DNA from: an uncultured Clostridia bacterium
GTDB lineage: Bacteria > Bacillota > Clostridia > Christensenellales > CAG-917
Direction: 5' to 3'
DNA length: 64,000 nt
NCBI GenBank assembly: GCA_944332815.1
Contig: CALVKQ010000002.1
Coordinates: 127,787 to 191,786 of the forward strand
Below the pieces are notes generated by a model. It was given only the letters and a program-made list of their open reading frames with translations, searched no databases and had not been told where the DNA came from. Shown here piece by piece: positions 8,873 to 15,616 of the stretch. The translations under genes and the position numbers were made by a program. How positions within the stretch are numbered: the first letter of the stretch is position 1; each line of letters begins with the position of its first letter.

Positions 8873-9493
8873 TCACATCGCCTCGTAGCGTATGTCCGTC
8901 ACTTCCGCACGCACGCGACCCGAGGTCTGGGCTTCGACGAGCGCAAGCGCCTCCGCCGTCCGTTCACGAGGGACGCACCATGCGGCTTCTACTCCTTCGC
9001 CGTAACCCGTGCGCACATTCTTTGCTCCGAAAGCGTTCAACGCCCGTTCCAACACCGAGGCGTCCTGATAGGTGCAACGGTAGGCTATCTCCGCGCATTC
9101 CGTCATCAACGCTTTCGTTGCGGCAGCCACTGCGCGCGACACGCTGTCCGTATACGCCGCCACCAATCCGCCGGCTCCGAGTTTGATGCCCCCGAAGTAG
9201 CGGGTGACGACGACGGCGACTCCCACCAGTTCCTGTTTTTTCAGCACTTCCAGCATGGGCTGTCCTGCCGTGCCGCCCGGTTCCCCGTCGTCGGAAAACC
9301 GTGCCGTGCGCTCGTCCGCTATATATGCGTAACAGTTGTGCGTGGCGTCGGGGTATTTCTTTCTGACCTTGCGCACGAAAGCCTCGGCGGAATCGCCGTC
9401 TTCCACGTGCGCTATGGTGGCGATAAACTTCGAGCGTTTGATCTCCGTGACGCTCTCCGCCTCGCCTCGTACAGTCAGATAACTCTTACTCAA
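8873..9493 (-). CDS. yigZ: YigZ/IMPACT family protein
   Basis: 206 residues of the UPF0029/IMPACT family, with the N-terminal ribosomal-S5-like domain containing RSKFIATIAHV, THNCYAYI, FSDDGEPGGTAGQP and VVVTRYFGGIKLGAGGL, followed by a smaller C-terminal ferredoxin-like domain. Biochemical function in bacteria is unsettled; IMPACT relatives act on translation regulation. Its start overlaps the tyrS stop by 8 bases, so the two are probably translated together. Confidence 0.92.
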   Translation of the reverse strand: MSKSYLTVRGEAESVTEIKRSKFIATIAHVEDGDSAEAFVRKVRKKYPDATHNCYAYIADERTARFSDDGEPGGTAGQPMLEVLKKQELVGVAVVVTRYFGGIKLGAGGLVAAYTDSVSRAVAAATKALMTECAEIAYRCTYQDASVLERALNAFGAKNVRTGYGEGVEAAWCVPRERTAEALALVEAQTSGRVRAEVTDIRYEAM

Positions 9494-10700
9494 CAGTCAC
9501 CTTGAAGAAGTTCTTTTTGCCTTTTTGAAGCACGAACCCGTTGGCACGTTGACTGTCGGAAAGTTCCGCATTGATGTCCGTCACTTTCACGCCGTCCACC
9601 ATGACGCCGCCCCCTTGGATGAGCCTTCGCGCCTCGCTCTTGGACGGGACTTTCGCCACCGCGACCAGCACTTCCGCCACCTGTTTCATACCCTCGGGGA
9701 TGACTGCGGACGGCATATTTTCGCTGTCGCCGGAAAATGCCGCTTTCGCCTTTGCGAGCGCGTCGTCTGCGGCTTCCTTGCCGTGCACCGTAAGGGTGAG
9801 TTCGTACGCGAGCCTTTCCTTTGCCGCGTTCATGCGTTCGTCGTTATAGCGCGTGAGCTCGTCTATCTCGTCGAGAGGCAGGAAGGTGAGGAAGCGGAAC
9901 ACCTTGTTGACGTCCGCGTCCGGGATATTGCGCCAGTACTGGAAGAAATCGTAAGGCGACGTTTTTTTCTCGTCCAGCCAAACCGCGCCCTTCGCCGTCT
10001 TGCCCATCTTTATGCCTTCCGAGGTGGTGAGCAGCCCGAAAGTGATCGCGAACGCGTCCTTGCCCTCCTTTCTGCGGATGAGATCCGCGCCGGCAAGGAT
10101 GTTGGACCACTGGTCGTCGCCGCCGCATTGGAGCACGCACCCGTACTTGCGGTTGAGCACCAGGAAGTCATATGACTGCATGAGCATATAGTTGAATTCG
10201 AGGAAGGTGAGCCCCTTCTCCATGCGCGCCTTGTAGCACTCCGCCGTCAGCATCTTGTTGACGGAGAAGCAGGAACCTATCTCGCGCAAAAAGTCGATGT
10301 AATTGAGCCCCAGCAGCCAATCGGCGTTATCCACGATGATCGCGCCGTTCTCGCCGTCGAAACGGATGAACCTCGCCATCTGCTTCTTGAAGCATTCCAC
10401 GTTATGCCGGATGGTTTCGCGCGTCATCATACTGCGCAAGTCCGTGCGCCCGGAAGGGTCGCCGATCATAGCCGTGCCGCCGCCTATCAATATGATGGGG
10501 CGATGCCCGGCGTCCTGCAAACGCTTTGCGACTATCATCTGCACGAAATGCCCGACGTGCAAGCTGTCCGCCGTCGGGTCGAACCCGATATAGAAGCATT
10601 GCGAGCCACTGTCCAACAGCTTTTTGAGGTCGTCCTCGAACACAGTCTGTTTGACGAGTCCGCGCGCCCTGAGTTCGTCTATGATGTTCGTTTTGGACAT
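9486..10700 (-). CDS. tyrS: Tyrosine--tRNA ligase
   Basis: Class Ic synthetase (404 residues) that charges tRNA-Tyr. The HIGH equivalent is DSLHVGHFVQM near residue 48, the tyrosine-binding segment is QSYDFLVLNRKYGCVLQCGGDDQ, and the KMSKS equivalent is KMGKT in EGIKMGKTAKG. The C-terminal S4-like RNA-binding domain (PSKSEARRLIQGGGVMVDG) is intact. The ~130-base upstream spacer is too short for a T-box, so tRNA-dependent control is not supported. Confidence 0.97.
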   Translation of the reverse strand: MSKTNIIDELRARGLVKQTVFEDDLKKLLDSGSQCFYIGFDPTADSLHVGHFVQMIVAKRLQDAGHRPIILIGGGTAMIGDPSGRTDLRSMMTRETIRHNVECFKKQMARFIRFDGENGAIIVDNADWLLGLNYIDFLREIGSCFSVNKMLTAECYKARMEKGLTFLEFNYMLMQSYDFLVLNRKYGCVLQCGGDDQWSNILAGADLIRRKEGKDAFAITFGLLTTSEGIKMGKTAKGAVWLDEKKTSPYDFFQYWRNIPDADVNKVFRFLTFLPLDEIDELTRYNDERMNAAKERLAYELTLTVHGKEAADDALAKAKAAFSGDSENMPSAVIPEGMKQVAEVLVAVAKVPSKSEARRLIQGGGVMVDGVKVTDINAELSDSQRANGFVLQKGKKNFFKVTVE

Positions 10701-10897: not shown

Positions 10898-11326
10898 TCA
10901 CGATTTCGGGCACAGCGCCTTTCTCATCCAAATGTGCGGCACTCCCTCCTCGTCGTCGGGCTCGCCGAACGGCTGATATCCCAGCTTTGCATAGAAACCC
11001 GACGCGCGCGTTTGGGCATGCACGACGGACTCGCGACCTCCTGCTTCCGCCGCCAGTTTCTCCGCCTCGCTCACTATGCTTGCGCCCACGCCTTTTTTGC
11101 GATACTCGGGCATCACGGCTATCCTGCCGATGAGATAAACGCCCTCTTCATCGCCCTTGAAAAACCGACACGTAGCAACGGGTTTTCCGCTATCTGACAG
11201 CACCAAATGCACGGAAACACCATCCGCGGCGTCGAACTCCTCTTTGAAGCCCTGTTCCTCCACGAACACCTTTTCCCTGATGTCTTTCGCCTCCTCGGGT
11301 AAAACATAGTAAACTTTCGTCATCAT
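10898..11326 (-). CDS. GNAT family N-acetyltransferase
   Basis: 142-residue acetyl-CoA-dependent acetyltransferase. The N-terminal block IREKVFVEEQGFKEEFDAAD is typical of the ElaA/YjcF-like GNATs. The acetyl-CoA motif A is IGRIAVMPEYRKKGVGASI (R/Q-x-x-G-x-G/A type). SGFYAKLGYQPFGEP gives motif B. Substrate unknown. A second ATG follows the first directly. Its start lies only 7 bases after the stop of the AT-rich Mrr-like gene and has no clear ribosome-binding site, so its original upstream region may have been replaced when that gene arrived. Confidence 0.85.
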   Translation of the reverse strand: MMTKVYYVLPEEAKDIREKVFVEEQGFKEEFDAADGVSVHLVLSDSGKPVATCRFFKGDEEGVYLIGRIAVMPEYRKKGVGASIVSEAEKLAAEAGGRESVVHAQTRASGFYAKLGYQPFGEPDDEEGVPHIWMRKALCPKS

Positions 11327-11333
11327 ACCGCAA

Positions 11334-13355
11334 TCAATCTAGTTTTACACCAGGCATATATGCATCCAACGTCTTTTGCAGAATATACCTGTTCCATAGT
11401 ATCACATTCGACTTCTTTGCTTGCTCTATCGCCGCGGGTGTAAACGTCGAATTCGTCACAACCATTGCTTTGTCACACCCGTAAAATTCTTTGCCCGAAA
11501 TCGCTTGCTGTACAGCGTCATTTCCCACACTATGTCCATAGTAACACTTGCATTGTATAGCTATGCGGACAATGTCATCGTCAGCAATTATATCAATTCC
11601 GTAGTCACCTGTTGTTCGGGTAAAACGCACGTTATACTCCATTTTCTCAAATAGTGCTGCAACAAGTTTTTCGAAATTCTTACCGTATGCGGATTTTGAA
11701 TTATTTATACCGACAGCATCCCTGATTTCAATCGTCTGCGCTCCTTCCAGCAATTTATCACGCGCTATTTTTATTCTGTATTCTTCAAGTTTTGCCGAAG
11801 CTTCTTTTACCAGTTGCCCGCCATTCTTGAACAGCCCCTCATTCGCTTTAGTAGTATACAAATAATAACAACGCCACATTGTTAAATTATCTTCTCTTAG
11901 CGCTGCCTCTTTTAACACCATCACATACTCGTCAAACGATGACGCATTGATTTTAGAGACATATTTCTCGTAAAAATATCGAATATAGTTCTCTCTGAAA
12001 ATTAGATATATTACCGCCCTAATTTCATTTTCTTCGAAATTTTTCTTAACAGTTTCATAAAGTAACTCTATATACGCTTCAACGTATCTTCTATTATCCT
12101 CTATTCCTGCATATCCGACTGTCTTCCAACTTGGCGATTTCGGTAATATTCCATATCCCCAATTTTGCGCTTTTGGCAATATTCCCAAATCATATTTGAT
12201 GCAATCGAACAAGTATTCATCCCTATCATCACCGTCATCTCCCCTTTTAATTATATACTTAATACCATATCTTGCGAATACTTTCCTGAGCAAAGTGGAA
12301 AACCCCATTTTCCCCGTAACATAATTGGCAATCTCTTTAAGTAGATTTGCCGTTGGAATATAAAATTTTTCTGTTAATTTATAAAAGATTTCGGATTGGC
12401 TCTTAATCCCATCTCGTGCCTGTTTGATTATACTCTCCGAATGGCTTAGCGGCTTTTCAACAACAGTTGGACTTTCTATAGCTTGCTTTACGTCATTCAT
12501 TTTCGACGTTTTTGGAATGTTTATAACTTCTGGTTTCGAAGTGGGCGTATTAACATATCCTTTGAAAGAATCAACCAGCGTATCAAATCTGCTCATTTCC
12601 AATAAGATTTGATGCAGAGTAAATTTTCTAGCGCGTGCGAATAATAACGCCTTTCCTGTCTTTATTATATCTGCCTGTTGAGTAATTCTGTTGCTATGAA
12701 TTGACAAATAAATGCGCAAGTTTTCGCGAAGATCTGCAGAAGCAACAACATCTTTCTCTTTGATTTCAAATTGATTTGTTATCTTATTGTCAATCAAATT
12801 GAGCATTAAAACAAACATTTGCTTCGGAAACAAACTTGTTCGCATTATGTTTAAGTTAACTAAAAAAGTATTATATGATTTACTGAGTATTACATCATTG
12901 CTAATTATTTGAGCCGCTCCTTCGCTCATAATCAGCTCTTCAATTTTGCGAACAGTCTCCTCGTTTTTTTTGTCCGCAATAAAATCAGACAACCAAAACA
13001 ACCTAATCAATGCGTTGCAGCATAAAACATATGCTCGATTAAACGGATATGATTCTCTAACACGTCTTTGGGAACTATCATATTGTAAAAGAACCTCTAT
13101 AGACTCGTCAATAATCTGAAATCCCTTGTTGTGTTTGTTAACAAATTTAGTTAAATTTCGCCTTATATGGTTTTCGATGTTGCTGATAGATAATGAAATC
13201 GAACAAGTAAAGTACGCCTTTTTTATACATTTTACAATTAAGTCTGGCGCATTATTAAAGTTCTTACAAAGATTGCTCAACATTGTGTCAAAAACAGGTA
13301 AGCGGTCTCTGACATATTTTTCAATTGACCTGCTAACGAATGTTTTCTTGCTCAT
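11334..13355 (-). CDS. Large protein with C-terminal Mrr-like restriction endonuclease domain
   Basis: 673 residues. Residues ~555-665 carry a PD-(D/E)xK nuclease core of the Mrr type: E562 in KNFEKLVAALFEKM, D588 in GDYGIDIIADDD, and Q601-x-K603 in IAIQCKCYYGHSVGNDAVQQA, followed by the AMVVTNSTFTPAAIEQA strand-helix seen in Mrr proteins. The first ~550 residues are helix-rich, unrecognised, and may sense a signal or bind nucleic acid or a partner. Base use is unlike all neighbours: strongly AT-rich with AT-ending codons, so recent transfer is likely. It has an AGGTGG ribosome-binding site, its own promoter at 13430-13458, and lies behind the tandem array of GGGtGRT 3' ends. A defence role is inferred from the domain and location only. 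Confidence 0.8.
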   Translation of the reverse strand: MSKKTFVSRSIEKYVRDRLPVFDTMLSNLCKNFNNAPDLIVKCIKKAYFTCSISLSISNIENHIRRNLTKFVNKHNKGFQIIDESIEVLLQYDSSQRRVRESYPFNRAYVLCCNALIRLFWLSDFIADKKNEETVRKIEELIMSEGAAQIISNDVILSKSYNTFLVNLNIMRTSLFPKQMFVLMLNLIDNKITNQFEIKEKDVVASADLRENLRIYLSIHSNRITQQADIIKTGKALLFARARKFTLHQILLEMSRFDTLVDSFKGYVNTPTSKPEVINIPKTSKMNDVKQAIESPTVVEKPLSHSESIIKQARDGIKSQSEIFYKLTEKFYIPTANLLKEIANYVTGKMGFSTLLRKVFARYGIKYIIKRGDDGDDRDEYLFDCIKYDLGILPKAQNWGYGILPKSPSWKTVGYAGIEDNRRYVEAYIELLYETVKKNFEENEIRAVIYLIFRENYIRYFYEKYVSKINASSFDEYVMVLKEAALREDNLTMWRCYYLYTTKANEGLFKNGGQLVKEASAKLEEYRIKIARDKLLEGAQTIEIRDAVGINNSKSAYGKNFEKLVAALFEKMEYNVRFTRTTGDYGIDIIADDDIVRIAIQCKCYYGHSVGNDAVQQAISGKEFYGCDKAMVVTNSTFTPAAIEQAKKSNVILWNRYILQKTLDAYMPGVKLD

Positions 13356-13533
13356 ATCAAACCACCTATAAGCATCCCGTTCATAAAGTCTATTAGTTGC
13401 TAAAAATGTTTGTACTGCTATTGCAATATATTATATAAGAAAATGAATAGCTAGGCAAGTCCGTTATTGTATTACACTCAGCAACAAACGCCAAAATCAA
13501 TCTTACCCGATTAGCCACCGCACAAGCAACCGA
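13356..13533. other. AT-rich junction between array and Mrr-like gene, with remnant unit D
   Basis: Reading on the minus strand, 13533-13513 encodes SVACAVA, the start of a fourth array unit, and then diverges into AT-rich DNA that continues into the nuclease gene. The abrupt change from array to foreign-looking sequence marks a likely recombination junction. Apart from the promoter, no other feature is seen. Confidence 0.6.
13430..13458 (-). promoter_or_regulatory. Sigma-A-type promoter of the Mrr-like gene
   Basis: TTGCCT (13453-13458), a 17-base spacer and TATAAT (13430-13435) on the minus strand, about 75 bases before the start codon. It gives the gene expression independent of the three terminators upstream. 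Confidence 0.75.
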
Positions 13534-13658
13534 TTTGGAACCAAAAGGCACACCTTGCGGTGTGCCTTGATGTTCGGCGCTTTGCGCCTTACTTAGTCTA
13601 ATGTTGCTTGCGCTTATTTTGTCAGTGCTTCCTGCACTGCCACTGCGCACGCAACAGA
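13534..13658 (-). repeat. Array unit C: synonymous copy of the GGGtGRT 3' end plus terminator
   Basis: Encodes SVACAVAVQEALTK and stop (13658-13614) with the same residues as the true gene end but largely different codons. It is followed by the conserved GAACATCAA block and a GGCACACC/GGTGTGCC hairpin (13547-13566) with TTTT after it on the minus strand. The small stem is GGCGC-AAA-GCGCC where A and B have GGTGC/GCACC. Confidence 0.85.
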
Positions 13659-13809
13659 CTGATTAGACCAAAAACACGCCATTGCTTTCGCTATGGCGTG
13701 TTTGATGTTCGGTGCTTCGCACCTCACTTGGTTTTTTCTTTGCCCTGCTTGTCGCCGAAGCCTCTTACTTCGTAAGAGCCTCTTGAACGGCGACTGCACA
13801 AGCCACAGA
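13659..13809 (-). repeat. Array unit B: near-identical copy of the GGGtGRT 3' end plus terminator
   Basis: 151 bases. Encodes SVACAVAVQEALTK and stop (13809-13765) with nearly the codons of the true gene. A matching post-stop segment, the GGTGC-GAA-GCACC stem and GAACATCAA follow, then a hairpin with AACACGCCAT/ATGGCGTGTT arms (13673-13702) and a minus-strand T tract. The hairpin sequence is unrelated to that of unit A. Confidence 0.85.
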
Positions 13810-13951
13810 ACTGAAATACCAAAAGGCGCCGCAAATGCGGCGCCTTGATGTTCGGTGCTTTGCACCTCACTTGGTGTTTCTTTGCCCTGCTTGTCGCCGA
13901 AGCCTCTTACTTCGTAAGAGCCTCTTGAACGGCGACTGCGCACGCCACAGA
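13810..13951 (-). repeat. Array unit A: native GGGtGRT 3' end plus terminator
   Basis: 142 bases covering the last 14 codons of the functional gene, its stop (13907-13909), the GGTGC-AAA-GCACC stem, GAACATCAA and the GGCGCCGC/GCGGCGCC terminator hairpin (13825-13844) with TTTT on the minus strand. The coding end itself forms an inverted repeat: GTCGCCG...CGGCGAC outside and CTCTTAC-GAA-GTAAGAG inside, with the stop codon in the stem. Confidence 0.85.
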
Positions 13952-14911
13952 CGCACCGACCATGGGGTTATTGCCCATGCCGATGAGGCCCATCATTTCG
14001 ACGTGCGCGGGCACGGAGGAGGAACCTGCGAACTGGGCGTCGGAGTGCATCCTGCCCATGGTGTCCGTCATGCCGTAAGACGCAGGACCTGCCGCCATAT
14101 TATCGGGGTGCAGCGTTCTGCCCGTACCGCCGCCGCTCGCCACGGAGAAGTACTTTTTGCCGTGCTCGACCGCCCACTTTTTGTAGGTGCCTGCGACGGG
14201 ATGCTGGAATCGCGTGGGGTTGGTGGAGTTGCCCGTGATGGACACGTCCACGTCTTCGAGGCGCATGATCGCGACGCCTTCCGTGACGTCATCCGCGCCG
14301 TAAACGCGCACCGCGGCGCGCTCGCCCTTGGAGTAAGCGGTTTCCTTGACTATCTTGACTTCGCCGGTGTAGTAATCCATCTTGGTCTGCACATAGGTGA
14401 AGCCGTTTATGCGGCTGATGATGAAAGCCGCGTCCTTGCCAAGCCCGTTGAGGATGACTTTGAGGGGCTGTTTGCGGACTTTGTTCGCAGTCTTGGCGAT
14501 GCCTATCGCGCCCTCCGCCGCCGCGAAAGACTCGTGACCTGCGAGGAATGCGAAGCACTTGGTTTCCTCACGCAGCAGCATTGCCGCGAGGTTGCCGTGC
14601 CCGAGCCCGACCGCACGCTGTTCGGCGACGGAACCGGGGATGCAGAAGCTCTGCAAGCCGATGCCTATGGCTTCCGCCGCATCCGCCGCGTTCTTGCACC
14701 CTTTCTTGATGGCGATGGCGCAGCCGACGGTGTACGCCCACACTGCGTTTTCGAACGCGATGGGCTGCACGCCTTTGACTATCGCTTCGACGTCTATGCC
14801 CTTTTCGGTGCAAACGGCTTTTGCTTCCTCCAAAGAGGCGATGCCGTATTCCGCGAGGGCTTTGTTGATCTTGTCGATCCTTCTCTCGTAACCTTCAAAT
14901 CTGATGCTCAT
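13907..14911 (-). CDS. GGGtGRT family protein
   Basis: 334 residues of the conserved anaerobe family named for its GGGtGRT motif, seen here as SVASGGGTGRTLHPDNMA. Other conserved blocks are CFAFLAGHESFAAAEGAIG, NGLGKDAAFIISRINGF and VDVSITGNSTNPTRF. Function is unknown. It sits 12 bases after the Fe-S scaffold-like gene, a pairing common in Clostridia, which suggests a role linked to metal clusters or redox enzymes. The C-terminal 14 codons are the part duplicated in the array downstream. No frameshift or truncation is seen, so insertions at this site have preserved the protein end. Confidence 0.88.
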   Translation of the reverse strand: MSIRFEGYERRIDKINKALAEYGIASLEEAKAVCTEKGIDVEAIVKGVQPIAFENAVWAYTVGCAIAIKKGCKNAADAAEAIGIGLQSFCIPGSVAEQRAVGLGHGNLAAMLLREETKCFAFLAGHESFAAAEGAIGIAKTANKVRKQPLKVILNGLGKDAAFIISRINGFTYVQTKMDYYTGEVKIVKETAYSKGERAAVRVYGADDVTEGVAIMRLEDVDVSITGNSTNPTRFQHPVAGTYKKWAVEHGKKYFSVASGGGTGRTLHPDNMAAGPASYGMTDTMGRMHSDAQFAGSSSVPAHVEMMGLIGMGNNPMVGASVACAVAVQEALTK

Positions 14912-14923
14912 AGCAGCCTCCCA

Positions 14924-15616
14924 TTACTCTTTGCGCGGATCGATATACTTGACCGCGTCGGCATATCTGCCGTAAGTGCCCGTGCTCTTTTTGAGCGCTT
15001 CGGCAGGATCGACACCCTTCTTTATCATCTCCATCATGACGCCAAGCTTGACGAACTCGTAGCCGATGATCTCGCTGTTCTCGTCCAGGGCGACCTTGGT
15101 GACGTAACCCTCCGCCATTTCCAGGTAACGAGGTCCTTTGACGACGGTGGAATACATGGTGCCGATCTGGCTGCGCAGCCCCTTGCCGAGGTCTTCCAGC
15201 CCTGCGCCGATGGGCAGACCGTCTTCAGAGAAGGCAGATTGCGTTCTTCCGTAAACGATTTGCAGGAACAGCTCGCGCATGGCGGTGTTGATGGCGTCGC
15301 AAACGAGGTCGGTGTTGAGCGCCTCCAAAATGGTCTTGCCGGGCAGGATCTCCGCTGCCATTGCCGCGGAATGCGTCATGCCGGAGCAGCCGAGCGTTTC
15401 GACGAGCGCCTCCTGAATGATGCCGTCCTTGACGTTGAGGGTGAGCTTGCACGCGCCCTGCTGCGGCGCGCACCAGCCTACGCCGTGCGTAAGACCGCAA
15501 ATGTCCTTGACTTCCTTTGCCTGCACCCACTTGCCCTCTTCGGGGATGGGAGCCGGACCATGGTTGGGCCCTTTGGCAACAGGACACATCATTTCAACTT
15601 CGTGAGAATATTGCAT
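14924..15616 (-). CDS. Iron-sulfur cluster scaffold-like protein (NifU-related)
   Basis: 230 residues. Cysteine-containing blocks MMCPVAKGPNHGP, GVGWCAPQQGACKLTL and ETLGCSGMTHSAAMAAEILPGK resemble the U-type scaffold core, in which conserved cysteines hold a nascent [2Fe-2S] cluster. The C-terminal third is helical and family-specific. It is probably cytoplasmic and acts with the GGGtGRT protein encoded next. An excellent AGGAGG lies 5 bases before the ATG. A TATAAT at 15653-15658 on the minus strand is a plausible -10 for the two-gene operon. Whether it truly assembles clusters is inferred from homology blocks only. Confidence 0.78.
   Translation of the reverse strand: MQYSHEVEMMCPVAKGPNHGPAPIPEEGKWVQAKEVKDICGLTHGVGWCAPQQGACKLTLNVKDGIIQEALVETLGCSGMTHSAAMAAEILPGKTILEALNTDLVCDAINTAMRELFLQIVYGRTQSAFSEDGLPIGAGLEDLGKGLRSQIGTMYSTVVKGPRYLEMAEGYVTKVALDENSEIIGYEFVKLGVMMEMIKKGVDPAEALKKSTGTYGRYADAVKYIDPRKE

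Follow-up and report, generated by a model that had tools for sequence, protein, structure and literature searches.

Short gene-free units in tandem at the 3′ end of a GGGtGRT gene, probably gathered by serial insertion

Results

Repeated gene ends downstream of the GGGtGRT gene

The window analysed here, a stretch of 64,000 nucleotides from an uncultured Clostridia bacterium (GTDB lineage Christensenellales, CAG-917), carries on its reverse strand a 334-aa GGGtGRT gene (13907..14911; PF14057, 656 bits), upstream of which lies a NifU-like partner gene on the same strand (14924..15616; PF01592 at 21.2 bits, just below the 22-bit cut-off). On the 3′ side of the GGGtGRT gene, which is the target of the repeats and whose last 14 codons form the first copy, three units (142, 151 and 125 bp) follow head to tail on the reverse strand, and after them comes a fourth core that is truncated. 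The core GTNGCNTGYGCNGTNGC, which encodes Val-Ala-Cys-Ala-Val-Ala, is present in exactly four copies in the window (reverse strand, 13932-13948, 13790-13806, 13639-13655 and 13514-13530) and in none of 100 dinucleotide shuffles; unit lengths are measured from core to core (13948-13807, 13806-13656 and 13655-13531).

Unit 1 (13807..13948, reverse strand, as are all array features) consists of the core, an alpha-type tail with its stop codon, an inverted repeat, a conserved block and a terminator, and unit 2 (13656..13806), also with an alpha-type tail, has the same anatomy with a different terminator stem. Unit 3 (13531..13655) has a beta-type tail and an inverted core repeat GCGCAAGCAAC at 13603-13613. 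All three tails encode VACAVAVQEALTK-stop, the first two in one codon version and the third in another, such that tails 1 and 3 differ synonymously at 10 of 14 codons. The 1.63-Mb genome as a whole contains exactly three copies of the conserved block C(A/G)CCGAACATCAA, which is found as CACCGAACATCAA at 13845..13857 in unit 1 and at 13702-13714 and 13567-13579 in units 2 and 3; all three copies lie inside the array, which indicates that the array is real and local. Each block is followed by a terminator-type hairpin (13825..13844, 13673-13702 and 13546-13567), the first of which alone passed a simple terminator scan. The fourth, distal-most core (13514..13530), presumably the oldest copy, ends after SVACAVA, where AT-rich DNA begins. 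A preliminary description of this DNA had reported three such units, each with the last 14 codons, block and hairpin, and a fourth copy cut off after SVACAVA, and coordinates and repeats agree with it on all these points.

Adjoining the array is an AT-rich gene of 673 aa with a C-terminal Mrr nuclease domain (11334..13355, reverse strand; PF04471, 99 bits) and partial PADLOC matches to the ZorD and PDC-S02 defence models. This gene looks like a neighbour of the array, and we rejected it as the cargo of a core-flanked unit, because no second core was found beyond it and because a relic of its 3′ end precedes the same acetyltransferase gene in a sibling species (G004, locus L114). That GNAT acetyltransferase gene (10898..11326, reverse strand) is kept as the distal boundary in the array-bearing species of the genus, and it is followed by tyrS (9486..10700, reverse strand), which in relatives with an empty site comes directly after the GGGtGRT gene.

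Cargo-free arrays in three genera of the family

Similar cargo-free arrays were found in nine related species, belonging to three genera of the same family and always at the GGGtGRT locus. Among nine other species of the same genus, five (G002, G004, G005, G008 and G009) have at least two tail copies at the locus, three (G001, G003 and G006) have a single one, and a search for the GGGtGRT gene in G007 found none; the G005 contig starts inside the array, which was placed by the acetyltransferase gene after it. The remaining arrays belong to other genera of the family (G024, G027, G031 and G010), and in a 396-genome sample of the order a strict tail pattern was repeated in this family alone. The gene order in the genus is GGGtGRT, array, sometimes other genes, acetyltransferase and tyrS, and at the empty sites of G030 and G035 a stretch of 70 bp separates the GGGtGRT gene from tyrS.

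The Val codon of the core marks the edges of the units in all three genera, and all 10 arrays are free of cargo and of the same anatomy, while copy number and unit make-up vary by species. The uniform lack of cargo gives no support to the earlier suggestion that the units of the window had once carried some. It also comes close to the observation that had been named as refuting insertion, namely a conserved, cargo-free array in relatives, yet the variation in copy number and unit make-up departs from it. Within the genus, the conserved block is confined to arrays with one exception, a copy on the reverse strand of a single-copy genome (G003:C1:112265-112277) that lies outside any array and may be due to chance. 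In the third, distal unit of G002 (L115) a short insertion separates the small hairpin from the conserved block.

Synonymous divergence and distal decay of the tails

Across the 10 arrays, the codons of the 20 downstream tails were compared with those at the end of the respective gene; 120 of the differing codons were synonymous and 8 non-synonymous, with related copies treated as independent and the G008 tail as the reference for G005, whose gene end is unassembled. Random changes would be expected to be non-synonymous in 74% of cases. Inside one genome, alpha and beta tails differ at about 10 of 14 codons, and tails may differ at up to 14/14 with the amino acids unchanged. By comparison, gene bodies of different species differ at 23-38% of codons, and same-type tails of different species can differ at just 1-2 of 14, near-identical tails being found in species with gene bodies that differ at 32-33% of codons. 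Since the divergence of tails within a genome thus exceeds that of gene bodies between species, and tails of the same type are nearly identical across species, the downstream tails do not seem to be copies of their own gene's tail.

Damage, scored by hand as truncation, loss of the stop codon or an amino-acid change, affects 8 of 10 distal-most copies versus 1 of 14 inner ones (Fisher p=0.0005, with kinship ignored and copies counted as independent). This concentration suggests that new units enter at the gene and push older ones outward. Untranslated downstream tails are expected to lose the peptide first. The simplest reading of the codon and damage patterns would be that units entered one after another at the gene and that each had once been its real end, and both the synonymous pattern and the polarity of decay favour the repeated insertion restoring the C-terminus that had been put forward at the outset.

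Two other histories bear on the same counts. If slippage or unequal crossing-over had duplicated the gene's 3′ end in tandem together with its terminator, and concerted evolution had followed, this could account for an exactly repeated beta-alpha pair in G008 and for the nearly identical units of G010, both of which tell us that local duplication does occur, as well as for terminator halves that have been homogenised within some genomes. The tails have not been homogenised along with them, so ordinary recombination also seems to shuffle units. However, duplicates that are not translated would lose the peptide first and would not keep an intact amino-acid sequence while up to 14 of 14 codons change, the breakpoints are identical across three genera, and the palindromes and inverted core repeat described below were not seen in the single-copy relatives read; we therefore consider duplication as the origin of the arrays quite unlikely. 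Homologous recombination with DNA of related species, in which the short homology of the core served to join one end, would explain how same-type tails can be nearly identical between species with such different gene bodies, but it predicts neither the identical core boundary of all units nor the palindromes, and at 11 nt the core offers very little homology for an event of this kind, which makes such exchange very unlikely.

Conserved palindromes and folding of the units

The alpha-type tails contain a palindrome, CTCTTAC-GAA-GTAAGAG, that spans the stop codon (13904..13920 in unit 1 and 13762-13778 in unit 2, reverse strand), and the beta form is CAGTGC-AGGAA-GCACTG (13623-13639, reverse strand). 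In the folded units a hairpin at the tail is accompanied by a second structure, and the arms of the latter often contain the next core. Array units of the genus also carry an inverted core repeat; neither the tail palindromes nor this repeat was seen in the single-copy relatives read. A sibling copy (G009_3) shows a compensatory change, with TGA in place of TAA as the stop codon and a matching substitution at the paired position of the tail palindrome, and in a hand-cut alignment of the L-type arms and the small hairpin 86.9% of cells pair, a value that 5 of 500 shuffles matched. Pairing of the inverted repeat with its own or the next core was the same as with permuted partners, that is, no unit-specific pairing was detected.

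A known RNA family was rejected as an explanation of the units, for which an Rfam search gave sub-threshold matches only. An array maintained for a regulatory role, as repeated terminators or 3′ RNA structures and not as a trace of insertion, would fit with the conserved block, the covarying hairpins and the terminator-type hairpin in every complete unit. However, besides the lack of an Rfam match above threshold, several species of the genus have no array, and terminators leave the synonymous-only differences between untranslated tails unexplained; of all explanations weighed here, we hold this one to be the least probable.

Larger elements attached at the GGGtGRT gene end of relatives

Larger elements occupy the same gene end in a number of relatives. 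In G033, a 92.7-kb prophage with genes for a tape measure protein, a holin and two integrases, and with a third integrase-like match inside, lies between two gene tails, the second of which is followed by the UTR and tyrS in sequence that matches the empty sites of the siblings G030 and G035; the marks of a prophage or island attachment site, namely a duplicated gene end, an empty site and a linked recombinase, are all present there. G012, G028 and G029 have a left end in common with this prophage. Elements of 1.8-4.8 kb between two tails were found at L041, L042, L051, L061 and L128, and one of about 10 kb at L053. At L051 and L053, a tyrosine recombinase gene directly follows the tail, and relatives of this recombinase were found at L075, L186, L204, L218 and L221, loci that had been fetched by the GGGtGRT gene or its tail. 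These marks are partly present at L051, L053 and other loci, and at the window's own array no linked recombinase was found. On this comparative evidence the GGGtGRT gene end is a real attachment site in relatives, as the preliminary description had proposed. It had also suggested searching related genomes for cargo between tails with a recombinase, which G033, L051 and L053 indeed have, whereas arrays of the window type are cargo-free.

Among viral contigs in IMG/VR, about 35 tails were verified, of which about 15 are chopped tails with unrelated DNA upstream, and in several viral tails homology begins at GGN-AAY-AAY-CC, upstream of the core of the short units. The known elements thus have cores that begin further upstream than the short-unit cores do, and the two groups may use different recombinases.

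No parent element with the ends of the units, and no cargo-bearing unit, was found: the tail pattern retrieved no contig of this genus from IMG/VR, the 14-base block pattern was unspecific and matched too many viral contigs, a plasmid collection gave no match, and phage records yielded no more than five matches, all short and partial.

Several features of these loci may be recorded in addition. The G033:C1 prophage (L120, L146 and L229) also carries nicotinamide phosphoribosyltransferase, RNA ligase and anaerobic ribonucleotide reductase genes. The gene end at L051 (11127-16669) carries two elements in tandem, spaced 4.75 kb apart, both of which open with a tyrosine recombinase gene; the first also has a resolvase-like fragment. 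L128 holds a 3-kb remnant between two tails, with one ORF that resembles the holin of the G033 prophage and a second that encodes a putative ToxN-type toxin. At L119 (G016) an AT-rich gene directly after the GGGtGRT tail appears by eye to encode a putative Vsr/DUF559 nuclease.

Discussion

The units have defined boundaries, their tails diverge strongly yet preserve their coding, the distal-most copies have decayed, the arrays are restricted to one locus, and in relatives phages and elements with a recombinase use this gene end as well. We therefore consider it probable from sequence comparison that the array is an accretion of short, gene-free, microCIME-type units at the end of the GGGtGRT gene. 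With a site-specific recombinase provided in trans, the gene end would be exchanged at the core GTNGCNTGYGC, the incoming unit would swap the last 14 codons for an equivalent set and add its own terminator, and each new unit would displace the previous tail downstream. We infer that this enzyme was a tyrosine recombinase and that the units came from outside the genome.

Accretion covers both the arrival of units of about 130 bp and that of larger elements which were later trimmed. Complete trimming, in which ICEs, IMEs or phage satellites entered and lost all cargo so that the left end and the next attachment core remain, is consistent with the use of this gene end by large elements in relatives and with the definition of CIMEs as integrated elements after cargo loss (PMC7563491). 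However, the complete units of 10 arrays have the same anatomy and nearly equal lengths, and neither intermediates with partial cargo nor a parent element were found; this form of accretion is possible but somewhat doubtful.

The closest known structures are the microCIMEs of Streptococcus salivarius, which are gene-free, measure 130-220 bp, lie at the 3′ ends of rpmG, rpsI, fda and rplL, and in composite tandem structures are always farthest from the target gene, the most decayed being the farthest; the tandem presence of an ICE or IME is a limit of the method by which they were detected and not part of their definition (PMC7563491). Like them, the units of the window array are gene-free, stand in tandem at a protein-gene 3′ end and have decayed most at the far end of the array, with the proportions of damaged copies given above; at 125-151 bp, a few units are up to 5 bp shorter than the published range, and a core marks every unit edge at the gene's 3′ end. 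Unlike microCIMEs, they have GGGtGRT as target, contain internal palindromes and are stacked several deep with no resident ICE or IME, the array holding no recombinase or transfer genes. Accretions of ICEs, IMEs and CIMEs at fda, rpsI and rpmG likewise combine site-specific 3′-end insertion with composite tandems, but the cores of the window enclose no gene-bearing element. The array is thus known in kind, and new in its target gene and in degree. What is new is the GGGtGRT target, the multi-unit arrays with no resident element, and conserved palindromes that resemble attC and lie outside its definition. The preliminary description had called the use of this gene undescribed, which stands for GGGtGRT as an attachment site, since a literature search by gene name found no such description and those papers examined held passing mentions, but not for gene-free elements at gene 3′ ends, which had already been published (PMC7563491).

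Integrons and CALINs share with the array the short units, the insertion beside a fixed end and imperfect palindromes with the next core in their arms, but the array has no gene cassettes and its core, GTTGCTT/AAGCAAC, misfits the usual R boxes of attC. The attC consensus is RYYYAAC for R'' and GTTRRRY for R'; the units show palindromic folding, and their core does not match this consensus. The AAC/GTT ends of attC (PMC2727003) are partly matched by the core. An integron proper was rejected, as the integron integrase model (TIGR02249) scored below cut-off in all 11 genomes searched. A looser kinship, in which the units of about 130 bp would be complete mobile cassettes with attC-like folding, captured serially at the gene end, with a replacement tail as cargo and with neither genes nor an integrase of their own, appears unlikely to us. 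If units were indeed self-mobile, they would represent very small site-specific mobile DNA.

The present findings add to the list of attachment sites a protein-gene end that prophages and islands use in several bacterial groups. In addition, synonymous-only divergence combined with far-end decay provides a measurable signature that separates serial insertion from duplication, and could be applied at any suspected attachment gene.

As for the enzyme, SCC elements at rlmH in staphylococci offer a parallel, as they enter a protein-gene 3′ end, have direct and inverted repeats, leave tandem remnants and use Ccr serine recombinases. The array resembles them in 3′-end insertion, repeats and tandem remnants, but the serine recombinase domain PF07508 had no match in two array-bearing genomes. 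No recombinase subfamily was found to track with the arrays; the single near-universal recombinase among array genomes is of the XerS-like housekeeping type, and the genomes' own recombinases score as Xer-like in those searched. An 11-kb contig (L226, G000:C16) holds a small element that carries an integrase and a weak match to an AAA-type ATPase, and integrases related to that of L226 occur in G008 and G024, both of which bear arrays.
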